A stretch of 64,000 nucleotides of DNA from an uncultured Gemmiger sp. (GTDB lineage Bacteria > Bacillota > Clostridia > Oscillospirales > Ruminococcaceae), in contig CALXHQ010000003.1 of the NCBI GenBank assembly GCA_944388145.1, positions 1 through 64,000 on the forward strand. Reading direction: 5' to 3'. This document shows, piece after piece, positions 57,559-62,337 of the stretch. The position numbers were made by a program, and so were the translations under genes. The stretch's first letter is position 1. The number at the start of each line of letters is the position of its first letter. Below the pieces are notes generated by a model. The model had not been told where the DNA came from and made no database searches. It saw only the letters and a list, made by a program, of their open reading frames with translations.

Positions 57559-57587
57559 TTGTATTTCCCCCCGGTGCATGCTATAAT
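57559..57587 (+). promoter_or_regulatory. Promoter of the radical SAM three-gene operon
   Basis: TTGTAT, 17 bases and perfect TATAAT, about 85 bases before the radical SAM gene. Confidence 0.65.
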
Positions 57588-57673: not shown

Positions 57674-59059
57674 ATGCCTTTTCTTTCCCGTGCGGAGAGC
57701 CGCTTTCTCCGCCACCGGCTGAGTGTCGTGCGCCATGTCACGCTGGACCCGGGCGGGCCCGGTGTGGTTCGCATTCATCTGGTACCCTGTCGCCGCAGCC
57801 TGCGGGAAGTTCCCTATATCGCCATCCTCAACGGGCGGGACATCCTGCCGCTGAGCGTCTCCTGGGCGATTCTGCTGGTCTGCCTGATCGACGCCCTGCA
57901 GCCCTTTGAGGGGCAGGAACTGCAGACCGGCCAGTGGAACGCCGTGGTGGAGCAGGCGGTAGGCGACACCCGCACTGTCTATTCCCACACGCCGGCGGAA
58001 CAGATCCGCGCCGACCTGTCCGCCATGGTGGAGGCGTTCCAGGACATTGCCCAGGGCCGCACCCCCCAGCTGCCGGTGGAGCGGATGGACCTGGGGCAGT
58101 ATGCGCCCCACATGCTGGCTCCCCACCGCATGGATCTGATGATCAGCTCCATGCAGAAGGACGGCGCCTGGCAGTGCAACCAGAAATGCCTGCACTGCTA
58201 CGCCGCCAACCAGCCCTACGGCAAGACGGCGGAGCTGGACACCGACCAATGGCTGGCCGTACTGCAGAAATGCCGGGATGCCGGCATCCCGCAGGTAACC
58301 TTCACCGGCGGCGAGCCCACCCTGCGCAACGACCTGGTCAAGCTGGTGCGGGCTGCCCAGTGGTTTGTAACCCGGCTGAACACCAATGGCCGCCTGCTGA
58401 CCATCCCGCTCTGCCGCGAACTGTATGAGGCCAGCCTGGACGCTGTACAGGTCACGCTATATTCCGCCGACCCGGCCGTCCACAACGCGCTGGTTGGTGC
58501 CCCCGGTTTTGAGGACACGGTCAGCGGCATCCGCAACGCGGTGGCTGCCGGCCTGAACGTGAGCATCAACACACCGCTGTGCCGCCGCAACTGCGACCTT
58601 GCCGCCACACTGGCGTTTGTCCACAGTCTGGGGGTGCGCTATTGCACCTGCAGCGGGCTGATCCCCGCCGGCGGCGCTGTGACCGGCAGCAGCGTTTCCA
58701 CCCGGCTGTCCACCGCGGAGCTGACCGACGTGCTGCGCCAGGGCAAGCAGTATGCCGACGCAAACGGCATGGAGCTGGAGTTTACCAGTCCCGGCTGGCT
58801 GGATGACCGGACGCTGGAAAACCTTGGCTTTACGCTGATTCCCAGCTGCGGGGCCTGCCTGTCCAACATGGCGGTGGCGCCGGACGGCACCGTACTGCCC
58901 TGCCAGAGCTGGCTGTCCGGCCCGGGGCTGGGCAATATCCTGCACCAGCCCTGGAGCCGGATCTGGAACAGCACCGATTGCCGCCGCATCCGCCACGTCA
59001 GTGCGCGGATGGAGCACATCTGCCAACTGGGGGACCCCCGCCGGAAGGAGGACGCATGA
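57674..59059 (+). CDS. Radical SAM/SPASM-domain protein, putative tail-modifying enzyme
   Basis: 461 residues from the ATG after GGAGTG. The N-terminal 150 residues include VPYIAILNGRDILPLSVSW, not part of the catalytic barrel and perhaps a substrate-binding domain. The radical SAM site is CNQKCLHC with Cys168, 172 and 175, followed by TGGEPTLRN. The C-terminal auxiliary-cluster region has Cys392, 395, 410, 436 and 450 (SCGACL, VLPCQSW), a SPASM arrangement as in peptide-modifying enzymes. The stop overlaps the next start (ATGA), so it is coupled to the Cys-Ala-tailed membrane protein, its likely substrate (inference). Confidence 0.88.
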   Translation: MPFLSRAESRFLRHRLSVVRHVTLDPGGPGVVRIHLVPCRRSLREVPYIAILNGRDILPLSVSWAILLVCLIDALQPFEGQELQTGQWNAVVEQAVGDTRTVYSHTPAEQIRADLSAMVEAFQDIAQGRTPQLPVERMDLGQYAPHMLAPHRMDLMISSMQKDGAWQCNQKCLHCYAANQPYGKTAELDTDQWLAVLQKCRDAGIPQVTFTGGEPTLRNDLVKLVRAAQWFVTRLNTNGRLLTIPLCRELYEASLDAVQVTLYSADPAVHNALVGAPGFEDTVSGIRNAVAAGLNVSINTPLCRRNCDLAATLAFVHSLGVRYCTCSGLIPAGGAVTGSSVSTRLSTAELTDVLRQGKQYADANGMELEFTSPGWLDDRTLENLGFTLIPSCGACLSNMAVAPDGTVLPCQSWLSGPGLGNILHQPWSRIWNSTDCRRIRHVSARMEHICQLGDPRRKEDA

Positions 59060-60207
59060 AAGCACAAGTTCAGCACCGCACTGCCGTTGCGGCGAGCCTG
59101 CTGGCCGGCCTGATGCTGGCCGCCACGGTCTGTGCGCCGGCCGCTCTGGCCGATGCCGGCGATTATGACGAGATCACCAGCTATGTGGTCACGGTGGACC
59201 CCCGCCAGGACGGCAGCGCCGACATCACCTATGCGATCGACTGGAGCGTGGTGGGCGGCGGCGAGGACGACTATCTTTCCTGGGTGAACATCGGCCTGGC
59301 CAACGAGTACGCCGACGAGTTTGTGAACCTGACCCCTGACACGGTGGAGGATGTATGCCTGTACACTGAAAACGGCAGCTACGCCCAGGTGACCTTTCTG
59401 GACCGGTACTATGCCCCCGACGTAGCCCGGCGCAACGGCGGCGAAAGTCAGGTGCATTTTGCCTTTCAGGTACACCAGAGCCATCTGTTCACCGAAAATG
59501 CCGACAACACCGCCAGCTTTGCCTTCACCCCCGGGTGGTTTGATGAGATCTGCGTGGACAGCCTGACGGTGCGCTGGCGCAATTATGCGGGCTTTGAGGC
59601 GGACAACCAATCCGTGGAGGGAGACTATCTGGTGTGGCAGTTCGGCCCGCTGGACCACGGCGAGCAGGTGACCGTCAACGTGAAGGTGCCGGTCACCACC
59701 GCCCAGGTGTTTGACCCCGCTGCCGCCCAAACCGGCGAGGAGCTGACCCCCGACGCTCCCAGGCACAGCAGCAGCGACGCGGGCGAGATCGCCAGCGCCC
59801 TGGTGCTGATCTTCCTGGCGCTGTTTGTCATCAGTGTGGTGTTCGCCGCCCGCCCGGCCCGCTGGCGGGGCGGTTTTGGCGCCTCCTACGACCCGATGGC
59901 CTGGGTCTGGTTTTATAACGGCAGCCAGTATCTGCGCATGCGCCGCGGCGCTGCGCCGCCGCCGGGCTACCACGCATCCTCGCCGCCGCCGGGCTTTCAT
60001 GCAGGCGGCGGCAAAACCCGCGGCGGCGGCGCCGGGCGGGATACCAGCCACCACGGCAGTTGTGTGTGCGCCTGTGCCTGCGTATCTTGCGCCTGCGCCT
60101 GTGCCTGTGCCGGCGGCGGCCGCGCCGGGTGCAGCGTGAAGAATTTCTACCGCGTCGGCCTGCCCCGGAAGGCCCGCCCCGATGAGGAACCCTACAATGA
60201 GCATTGA
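59056..60207 (+). CDS. Single-span membrane protein with a Cys-Ala repeat tail
   Basis: 383 residues. Signal peptide (about 1-32, ending AALA-DA), an extracytoplasmic beta-rich domain (33-240) with a DUF2207-like feel, a membrane helix at 245-265, and a cytoplasmic tail. The tail has PPPGYH/PPPGFH repeats (301-315), a Gly-rich spacer and CVCACACVSCACACACA at 336-352, then GGGRAGC. Cysteines 336, 338, 340, 342, 345, 347, 349, 351 and 359 alternate with Ala. Such a tail could take thioether cross-links or bind a metal cluster. It overlaps both neighbours, ATGA with the radical SAM gene and 11 bases with the ATPase. The topology puts the tail where the enzyme can reach it. Confidence 0.85.
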   Translation: MKAQVQHRTAVAASLLAGLMLAATVCAPAALADAGDYDEITSYVVTVDPRQDGSADITYAIDWSVVGGGEDDYLSWVNIGLANEYADEFVNLTPDTVEDVCLYTENGSYAQVTFLDRYYAPDVARRNGGESQVHFAFQVHQSHLFTENADNTASFAFTPGWFDEICVDSLTVRWRNYAGFEADNQSVEGDYLVWQFGPLDHGEQVTVNVKVPVTTAQVFDPAAAQTGEELTPDAPRHSSSDAGEIASALVLIFLALFVISVVFAARPARWRGGFGASYDPMAWVWFYNGSQYLRMRRGAAPPPGYHASSPPPGFHAGGGKTRGGGAGRDTSHHGSCVCACACVSCACACACAGGGRAGCSVKNFYRVGLPRKARPDEEPYNEH

Positions 60208-62260
60208 AAGCCAGTATGACGCCTGGGTGCGGGGCCTGGTGGGCTCCGCCCGGTCCGGCAACCGCCAGGATGCGGATGCCGCCGCCCAGAGTGTACAGGA
60301 GATGCAGAAAGCGCTGGACGAGCTGTCTGCCCAAAACACCCGGCACCGCACAGCCGCCGATCAGGCTGCCGGGGCCGTGAGCCGCGCCGCCGGAGCCACC
60401 ATGGAACAGGTGCGCCGCATGAGTGATGAGCTGACCGCCTCGCTGCAGCGGGACGGATTGTTGGGCAAGACCGCCTCTGCCGCCCAGGCCGCGCCCGCAG
60501 CACCCCAGACCGCCGCCCACGGCAGCTTTGCAGGCCTGGCGGATCGGGTGCGCACCCGGGTGTTGGGGCAGGACGCCTTTGTCGGTGCCATTGTCAAGGC
60601 CTTCCGCCGCCCCTTTGTGATGGGTGTGCCGGACGCCGCCCACGCCCGCAGCGTAATGCTGTTGTGCGGTGCCGAGGGCACCGGCCGCCACTACGCCCTG
60701 CGCTGCGTGGCGGAGGAACTGGCCGCCCGGGGGCTGATCTCCACCGCCCGCATCGAGACGATGGACCTGGCCCTGTACCCCGGTCCCGCGCAGGAAAAGC
60801 TGTTTTTGCAGGACCTGTACGCCGCCCTGACCTGTGACGCTGAGATTCTGGCCTTTGACCATTACGAGGGTTGTGCCTCGGCCTACCTGAACATGCTGGC
60901 CACCCTGGCCATCGACGGCACACTGGCGCTGAACAGCCGGTATGTGCTGCAGCGGGGCATCCTGGTGGATGTGGGCACCGCACTGGCGCCCGACGCGGTG
61001 GGCGAACTGCAGGCGCGGGGCAAATATTTTGTCTTTTTCTCCGCCAACGGACCCGAAGCCCTGGCAGAACGGTTCGGCGCCCGGTTTGTGGATGCACTTT
61101 CCGGCGACATCTGCCGTACCGAGCCTTTCACCCCCGAAAGTCTGAATGCCATCGCCGCCCGGGAGCTGAACGCCCTGGCCCAGAAGGTCAAGGCCCAGTG
61201 CCACCTGACCCTGACCGCCGGCAGCGAGGTGCGTGACCTGCTGGCGGGGCAGTATGGCCGCACCACCGGCGTGGACGCCATTCAGGAGTACGCCGGCAAC
61301 GCCTACCGCGCGGTGGTGGAGTATGTGCTGGACCACGAGGCCCCGCTGCCGGAAGGGACCACCATCCGGCTGAGCGTGGCGGACGGCCGCCTGATGGCTG
61401 CCGTAAATGAGGGCGAAGCCTTTGACCTTTTGAATCTGCTGCCCCAGCAGTACCGGGGCGATGTGGCCGCGGTGGAGGCCGAGCTGAACGCCATTGTGGG
61501 CCTGGATGAAGTCAAAGCCTTTGTGCGGGATATTGCCAGCAACGTGCAGGCCCAGCAGCGGCGCAAAGCTCAGGGGCTGAAAGCCGCCACCGTCAACCTG
61601 CACATGATCTTTACCGGCAACCCGGGCACCGGCAAAACCACCATTGCCCGCATCCTGTCCAAGTATCTGAAGTCCATCGGCGCGCTGCGGGGCGGCCAGC
61701 TGGTGGAGGTGACCCGGGCCGACCTGGTGGGCCGGTATGTGGGCCACACGGCGCCGCTGACCAATCAGGTGATCCGCAGCGCCCTGGGCGGCGTGCTGTT
61801 CATCGATGAAGCGTACAGCCTTTACCGCGGCCGGGAGGACAGCTTTGGCCTGGAGGCCATCGACACGCTGGTCAAGGGCATTGAGGACCACCGGGACGAC
61901 CTGGTGGTGATCCTGGCCGGCTATACCCATGAGATGCAGCAGTTTTTGACCGCCAACTCAGGGCTGGCCAGCCGGTTTCCCAACCAGATCGAGTTCCCCG
62001 ATTACACCGCCGGCCAGCTGTGGCAAATCAGCCAGTCCGTCGCCAAGGGCAAGGGTTACGTGCTGGACGCCGCCTGCGAGCCCCCGCTGAAGGCCTACTT
62101 TGCCCGCAAGCAGACTGAAAATCCGGGCAAAAACGGCAACGGCCGCATGGCCCGCAATGTGGTGGAACGCGCCATTCTGAACCAATCCAAACGGCTGGTG
62201 GCCGACCCGGACGCCTCGATGGAGCTGCTGCTGCCCGGTGACTTTGACCTGGATGACTGA
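60197..62260 (+). CDS. Two-module AAA+ ATPase (ClpB-like degenerate module plus CbbX/SpoVK-like module)
   Basis: 687 residues. Residues 1-110 are helical and Ala/Gln-rich. Module 1 (about 115-345) begins RVLGQDAFVGAIVKAFRRPF like a Clp module, but its Walker A reads CGAEGTGRHY (157-166), with the Lys-Thr/Ser replaced by Arg-His, and Walker B reads LAFDHYE, so it is probably not hydrolytic. Module 2 (about 430-687) is a CbbX/SpoVK AAA domain with GNPGTGKTT (474-482), VLFIDEA (533-539), a likely Arg finger in SGLASRF and sensor GNGRMARN. The 11-base overlap ties it to the Cys-tailed protein. It may load, remodel or extract it (inference). Confidence 0.88.
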   Translation: MSIESQYDAWVRGLVGSARSGNRQDADAAAQSVQEMQKALDELSAQNTRHRTAADQAAGAVSRAAGATMEQVRRMSDELTASLQRDGLLGKTASAAQAAPAAPQTAAHGSFAGLADRVRTRVLGQDAFVGAIVKAFRRPFVMGVPDAAHARSVMLLCGAEGTGRHYALRCVAEELAARGLISTARIETMDLALYPGPAQEKLFLQDLYAALTCDAEILAFDHYEGCASAYLNMLATLAIDGTLALNSRYVLQRGILVDVGTALAPDAVGELQARGKYFVFFSANGPEALAERFGARFVDALSGDICRTEPFTPESLNAIAARELNALAQKVKAQCHLTLTAGSEVRDLLAGQYGRTTGVDAIQEYAGNAYRAVVEYVLDHEAPLPEGTTIRLSVADGRLMAAVNEGEAFDLLNLLPQQYRGDVAAVEAELNAIVGLDEVKAFVRDIASNVQAQQRRKAQGLKAATVNLHMIFTGNPGTGKTTIARILSKYLKSIGALRGGQLVEVTRADLVGRYVGHTAPLTNQVIRSALGGVLFIDEAYSLYRGREDSFGLEAIDTLVKGIEDHRDDLVVILAGYTHEMQQFLTANSGLASRFPNQIEFPDYTAGQLWQISQSVAKGKGYVLDAACEPPLKAYFARKQTENPGKNGNGRMARNVVERAILNQSKRLVADPDASMELLLPGDFDLDD

Positions 62261-62288: not shown

Positions 62289-62337
62289 AAAAACATCCCC
62301 GGCAGAACCATAGGGTTCCGTCGGGGATGTTTTTTGT
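62289..62337. terminator. Bidirectional terminator between converging operons
   Basis: AAAACATCCCCGGCAGAACC / GGTTCCGTCGGGGATGTTTT stem with a 4-base loop. T-runs in both directions. Confidence 0.9.

Follow-up and report, generated by a model that had tools for sequence, protein, structure and literature searches.

Can a radical SAM enzyme act on the tail of a membrane protein that stays in the membrane, and which genes does such a system comprise? Peptide maturases of the radical SAM type are best known as makers of released peptides, and the question is raised by a three-gene locus in a 64,000-nucleotide stretch of DNA from an uncultured Gemmiger sp. (the window; positions 1 to 64,000 of the forward strand of contig CALXHQ010000003.1, assembly GCA_944388145.1). 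The locus spans positions 57674–62260 on the plus strand and encodes a radical SAM enzyme (P0001), a membrane protein with a Cys-Ala ladder in its tail (P0002) and a two-module AAA+ protein (P0003). The first two genes overlap by 4 bases and the second and third by 11 bases, as described in the first-pass annotation and confirmed from the open reading frame (ORF) coordinates. As judged from sequence comparisons, the core unit is the pair formed by the first two genes. We propose, with moderate confidence, that this pair is a post-translational modification system in which the ladder tail is cross-linked by thioethers and retained at the membrane.

The pairing itself was seen in the distribution of the two genes. 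When a profile of the radical SAM family was run on 391 genomes of the class, with at most four candidates scored per genome, the family was found in exactly the 11 genomes that harbour the ladder, ten at 500–809 bits and one, truncated by its contig, at 193.5 bits. These 11 genomes are not independent, since G000, G128 and G241 contributed rows to both profiles and four share one genus. Fifteen other class genomes with E ≤ 1e-50 scored 176–199 bits, with alignments starting only at position 165 or 166, and two of these SPASM enzymes that were scanned (L083 and L090) reached no model cut-off among the matches listed. In total we compared 43 ladder loci: the window, 11 relative loci, 10 from the class, three from the family, 15 further loci, two from another class and one phage-labelled record. 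In 40 of them the two genes are direct neighbours on one contig. Contig ends break up the remaining three (G196, G235 and G1119); of these, G196 and G235 show the enzyme gene next to the beginning of a ladder-type protein whose remainder falls outside the contig. No ladder gene without the enzyme gene was found on an unbroken contig among the 43 loci. Thus the earlier proposal that the two genes belong together was borne out, and a wide occurrence of the tail gene without the radical SAM gene, which we looked for as evidence against it, was not observed. Two of the enzyme genes are incomplete or interrupted: the G920 contig holds only the C-terminal part, and the G235 frame contains a stop codon.

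We also compared all frames of at least 80 amino acids from 23 loci against each other (76 rows, down to 5 loci). The enzyme was found in all 23, and the ladder protein was linked across up to 20. No third gene family common to the 23 loci emerged, the other rows being antisense frames overlapping the two genes; because of the length limit, a short peptide gene would be missed here. In a tree of 48 enzymes, the 38 paired enzymes of the main family formed one group with full support. The paired enzymes of L065 and L066 lie far from this group, in the part of the tree where the eight unpaired enzymes of the outgroup fall, and the pairing may therefore be very old or have arisen twice.

The membrane protein has a signal-like segment at residues 9–27, an ectodomain at about residues 36–222, one transmembrane segment, placed at residues 245–263 by hydropathy, and a tail of ~119 residues. 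The net charge is −2 before and +3 after the transmembrane segment, so the C-terminus is predicted to be cytoplasmic. The C-terminal region reads CVCACACVSCACACACA-GGGRAGC, and cysteines are found at residues 26, 101, 166, 336, 338, 340, 342, 345, 347, 349, 351 and 359. The description of the tail as almost pure Cys-Ala holds for the 17-residue ladder and not for the tail as a whole. The ladder itself (336–354) also exceeds a simple hydropathy cut (1.98), which we took as an effect of the Cys and Ala scores. P0002 gave no Pfam match at E ≤ 1, and neither P0002 nor the relatives scanned are named by any Pfam or NCBIfam model. The ectodomain is predicted to adopt a ribophorin-I/DUF2207-like beta fold. 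The DUF2207 model PF09972 did not match P0002 at E ≤ 1 and gave 12.4–14.8 bits for three of five relatives, against a cut-off of 24.4. DUF2207 proteins and the ribophorin-I domain differ in having no Cys ladder, and the function of ribophorin I is unrelated.

The ladder is by far the most conserved part of this protein. Among 17 divergent membrane proteins, several of which were found with a ladder profile and so favour the ladder, mean pairwise identity reached 96% in the ladder with GRAGC, as against 35% in the ectodomain, 18% in the transmembrane segment and 12% in the last residues. Moreover, across 33 loci picked by the exact motif CACACAGGGRAGC, each residue is encoded by two to six different codons while the residues are fixed. 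These two results argue that the ladder is not a product of chance. The ladder motif was present in 41 of 42 scanned loci, the other being cut at a contig end, and little or no variation is seen at the neighbouring ladder cysteines and the distal GC. The KDFY motif, on the other hand, is missing in two lineages, and KNFYR was ruled out as the substrate as it is lacking in L071, L072, L065 and L066. In the most divergent pair, from another class, the protein ends right after the ladder and retains only the ladder and the following GGC, which again points to the ladder as the likely substrate. The ectodomains of this pair are nevertheless homologous to the others in a profile comparison (probability 98.4, 168 columns, 14% identity). 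Taking these comparisons together, we regard the ladder as probably the substrate of the enzyme.

Several variants of the ladder protein were seen. Four loci encode an extra zinc-ribbon-like CxxC segment between the transmembrane segment and the ladder (L033 6463-7719, L068 393-1694, L117 674-1990 and L125 5712-7094). L036 (7782-9709) encodes two tandem ladder proteins beside a single radical SAM gene, one copy having Tyr for a ladder Cys (CAYACACA). In L039 (3153-7744), two DUF2207-like membrane proteins carry Gly/Ser-rich tails in place of Cys-Ala; these are possibly relatives of the ancestor of the ladder family.

Which chemistry could the enzyme perform? The earlier assignments of a SPASM radical SAM enzyme and a CbbX/SpoVK-like ATPase were confirmed by Pfam and NCBIfam matches. 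P0001 matched Radical_SAM (E 3.8e-20, 73.2 bits against a cut-off of 29.5) and SPASM (E 1.4e-8, 35.3 bits against 21.5). The CX3CX2C cluster motif lies at Cys168/172/175 and is invariant across 10 divergent rows. Candidate auxiliary-cluster cysteines are Cys392, Cys410 and Cys450 (plus 395 and 436), and C392-X12-G405-X4-C410 fits the SPASM/Twitch pattern CX9-15GX4C. The second SPASM motif, CX2CX5CX3C, is present in the L049 enzyme and missing in P0001, which is therefore rather Twitch-like. The predicted strand-helix order at the N-terminus fits a recognition element of ribosomally synthesized and post-translationally modified peptide (RiPP) enzymes (RRE), but the PDB and Pfam matches at E ≤ 10 include no known RRE. 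Among solved enzymes SkfB is the nearest, ranking first by sequence and, with a narrow lead, by structure. SkfB consists of a radical SAM core with a SPASM/Twitch domain and is described as a Cys-Calpha thioether synthase in the cited part of PMC6231123; it has also been reported to accept alanine. Against the sactisynthase equivalog model TIGR04403 (rSAM_skfB), P0001 scored 52.5 bits, below the cut-off of 300.

From these comparisons the following mechanism can be proposed. The proposed site of action of the SPASM/Twitch enzyme is the cytoplasm, where it would target the partner's C-terminal Cys-Ala ladder and abstract a Calpha hydrogen from Ala or a neighbouring small residue. A Cys sulfur would then be joined to this Calpha. 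The ladder would thereby acquire at least one internal thioether (sactionine) cross-link, which would turn a flexible tail into a rigid cross-linked element. The thioether chemistry is a tentative part of this scheme. The modified tail would be neither cleaved nor exported, remaining the cytoplasmic end of the membrane protein, and the ectodomain may sense or bind something extracellular. Tentatively, then, anaerobic Bacillota may possess membrane proteins with a permanent, radical-SAM-cross-linked cytoplasmic Cys-Ala strip, a RiPP-like modification that would serve as a built-in structural, redox or metal device and not yield a released peptide. Our suggestions for the biological function and for the role of the AAA+ protein are weak. 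This strictly paired family of enzyme and membrane protein extends over several Clostridia families and one other class and suggests that such chemistry can also go into lasting components of membrane proteins. It would also provide a defined two-gene enzyme-substrate pair, with an unusually repetitive substrate for cross-link patterning.

A different reading is that the ladder is a strip of thiolates for metal ions or iron-sulfur clusters, and that the enzyme modifies a few positions or serves assembly. In an extended strand the alternating cysteines would all lie on one face, the tails of the 17 ladder proteins carry 6–10 Cys each, and the near-invariance of the neighbouring cysteines and the distal GC would suit ligands. 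Furthermore, MNIO-modified bufferins bind copper, according to the cited part of PMC12452194. However, simple metal binding needs no radical SAM enzyme, yet the enzyme accompanies the ladder wherever the contig is intact, and the tandem copy in L036 has replaced one ladder Cys by Tyr. We consider this reading unlikely.

It is also rather improbable that the enzyme makes another modification, such as an anSME-like Cys oxidation, the Cys-Cbeta thioethers of ranthipeptides or C-C cross-links. The lower-scoring PDB relatives of P0001 do include PqqE, SuiB, 5wgg (a thioether-forming maturase) and anSME, and P0001 reaches no NCBIfam cut-off among the 25 models listed. Against this stand the first rank of SkfB and the ladder itself, which is without Asp, Glu or Thr acceptors. 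To our knowledge, QhpD and anSME have different acceptors (Asp and Glu; Cys or Ser oxidation) and different targets, with no membrane tail or Cys-Ala ladder.

That the tail is not a substrate at all, and instead recruits the enzyme to the membrane or supports it electronically while the true substrate lies elsewhere, seems very improbable. SPASM enzymes need electrons, and a strip of cysteines could carry them. However, among frames of at least 80 amino acids no other gene family is common to the 23 loci, down to 5 loci, and conservation is far higher in the ladder than elsewhere in the protein. Finally, short-period repetitive DNA can mimic such a ladder, as in a chance match in genome G760, but a low-complexity repeat or frame artefact is a negligible prospect in general and is refuted for the window gene, as synonymous codons vary at fixed residues in the 33 motif-selected loci, the full-protein profile runs through the ladder in 30 of 31 matching genus genomes and the ladder recurs in another class. 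A defence system was also rejected, the domain matches being only generic ones of the viperin, IetA and TRIP13 type.

The preferred reading, a thioether-cross-linked and membrane-retained tail, has its closest described analogue in the TIGR04222 membrane proteins with MNIO enzymes, to which the pair would be a radical SAM counterpart. In the cited part of PMC12452194, these are integral membrane proteins with a Cys-containing, low-complexity C-terminus, often encoded beside a RiPP-type modifying enzyme, and there as here the modification is inferred. They differ in the enzyme, an MNIO (DUF692) instead of a radical SAM protein, and in the tails, which are Ser/Gly-rich with interspersed Cys and predicted to be extracytoplasmic, whereas the ladder tail is predicted to be cytoplasmic. 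About a third of the TIGR04222 genomes are without MNIO genes according to the same part of that source, and the TIGR04222 model gave no match at E ≤ 1 for P0002 or seven relatives. Sactisynthases such as SkfB share the radical SAM core and the SPASM/Twitch domain with P0001, but in the cited part of PMC6231123 the substrate is a short peptide, whereas the partner here is a membrane protein of about 300–480 amino acids. Likewise, the gene set of a sactipeptide locus (a short leader precursor with a protease or exporter) was not found: the partner in the window has 383 amino acids and no third family was seen among frames of at least 80 amino acids in the 23 loci. Radical SAM enzymes that act on proteins and not on free peptides are nevertheless described in the cited part of PMC8326336, namely QhpD (thioethers of QHNDH) and anSME (formylglycine of sulfatases), and the pair resembles them in this respect. 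A published description of the pairing of a radical SAM enzyme with a Cys-Ala tail was not found in the open-licence PMC literature, the scope of which excludes subscription papers and preprints.

The AAA+ protein had been proposed as a component of the system; here the genomes did not follow the annotation. P0003 matched AAA (E 6.3e-21) and AAA_lid_6 (E 9.2e-11) and carries two P-loop-like motifs, a degenerate one with Lys changed to Arg (158 GAEGTGRH) and an intact one (474 GNPGTGKT). Its C-terminal ATPase module resembles SpoVK (307.7 bits, cut-off 422.95), EccA (250.1 bits) and CbbX (248.2 bits, cut-off 459.25), all below the cut-offs, and also matches the CbbX structure (E 1.2e-69). The protein differs from all three in the extra N-terminal module with the degenerate P-loop, and no Rubisco or type VII genes were seen in its operon. 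The AAA+ gene adjoins the pair in the window, the 11 relative loci, G309, G347 and the phage-labelled record, and does not do so in the other loci compared. Of 54 chosen genomes, seven hold homologues that cover most of its length (>680 bits). In three of these they lie beside the pair (G309, G347 and, by the position of the ladder match, G343). They were also found in G298 and G302, where the full-length ladder-protein profile found nothing, and in G1021 and G1079 on a different contig from the pair. The AAA+ protein was therefore rejected as a core component and is regarded as an accessory, since its association with the pair was seen only for Gemmiger and close relatives and it also occurs without the pair. 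The chaperone help proposed earlier is thus at most a lineage-specific add-on. In these bacteria the SpoVK/CbbX-like protein would have been recruited into the operon, where it may remodel the tail or exert a pull on it. CbbX, the activase of red-type Rubisco, apparently works by threading its target's C-terminal peptide, according to the cited part of PMC5437159. It would thus pull at the C-terminus of the Rubisco large subunit, and by analogy a CbbX-like pull on the ladder tail is conceivable. Loci L136-L139 hold the two-module AAA+ family without the pair or apart from it.

Within the genus, a profile of the membrane protein matched 31 of 35 genomes (own genome included), among them all 19 with a completeness of 90% or more and a contamination of 5% or less; 30 of the 31 matches span the ladder and reach model position 366 or further. 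Outside Gemmiger the distribution is patchy. With the full-length profile, matches were obtained in 6 of 291 genomes of the class and 7 of 148 of the family (both counts include the own genome); G172, G330 and G366 were discarded as ladder genomes, their matches being weak and partial and no Cys ladder being seen at their loci. With a ladder-only profile the counts were 11 of 391 in the class, 13 of 170 and 7 of 16 in two other families, and 2 of 5 in a second class of the same phylum. When 398 genomes drawn from the whole phylum were searched at E ≤ 0.001, three matched, the own genome, G474 and G760, the last judged to be chance as no start-to-stop frame of at least 60 amino acids at its locus contains a ladder. 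This search did not report G581, which a slightly altered ladder profile picked up at E 0.0027, so that distant ladders can be missed. The ladder gene of G878 is broken up by transposase-like reading frames (L072 8660-11592), and that of G347 consists of two open pieces, ectodomain and ladder part (L041 7149-9107).

A mobile or phage origin was rejected: plasmids gave no match at E ≤ 1e-40, and none of 39 pattern matches in viral contigs was confirmed. One unverified record of 7.4 kb, labelled 'Bacteriophage sp.' and derived from human faeces (MT837216.1; L099, 2479-7138), holds all three genes (radical SAM protein 65.8% identical) and is probably bacterial DNA filed as phage.

Features of the locus, in coordinates of the window
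Feature	Position	Strand	Basis
Extended -10-like sequence TGCTATAAT 5′ of the operon	57579..57587	+	Read by eye, weak
Radical SAM / SPASM-Twitch enzyme P0001, 461 amino acids	57674..59059	+	ORF, Pfam, NCBIfam and structure matches
Membrane protein with Cys-Ala ladder P0002, 383 amino acids	59056..60207	+	ORF, topology prediction
Predicted transmembrane helix of P0002, residues 243-264	59782..59847	+	Hydropathy/topology prediction
Cys-Ala ladder CVCACACVSCACACACA, residues 336-352	60061..60111	+	Sequence, codon and identity comparison
Conserved motif GGGRAGCSVKNFYR directly after the ladder, residues 353-366	60112..60153	+	Sequence comparison
Two-module AAA+ protein P0003, 687 amino acids, lineage-specific accessory	60197..62260	+	Pfam, NCBIfam, structure match
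Hairpin followed by T tract	~62290..62335	+	Minimum free energy -34.6 kcal/mol, z -7.14

A single promoter had been proposed for the three genes. A consensus scan found no sigma-70 promoter upstream of the operon, and what stands of this proposal is the weak extended -10. The hairpin with its T tract is a probable operon terminator, and the terminator scan did not report it. The operon is flanked by a YitT-family gene upstream and by a LytR-CpsA-Psr gene, on the opposite strand, downstream. The three genes were found in identical order in all 11 relative loci (10 labelled Gemmiger and one Faecalibacterium sp.). When these loci, which extend up to 6 kb to either side of the match, were searched by tblastn, only two contained the YitT neighbour and four the LytR-type neighbour, suggesting that the trio is kept together beyond general synteny.

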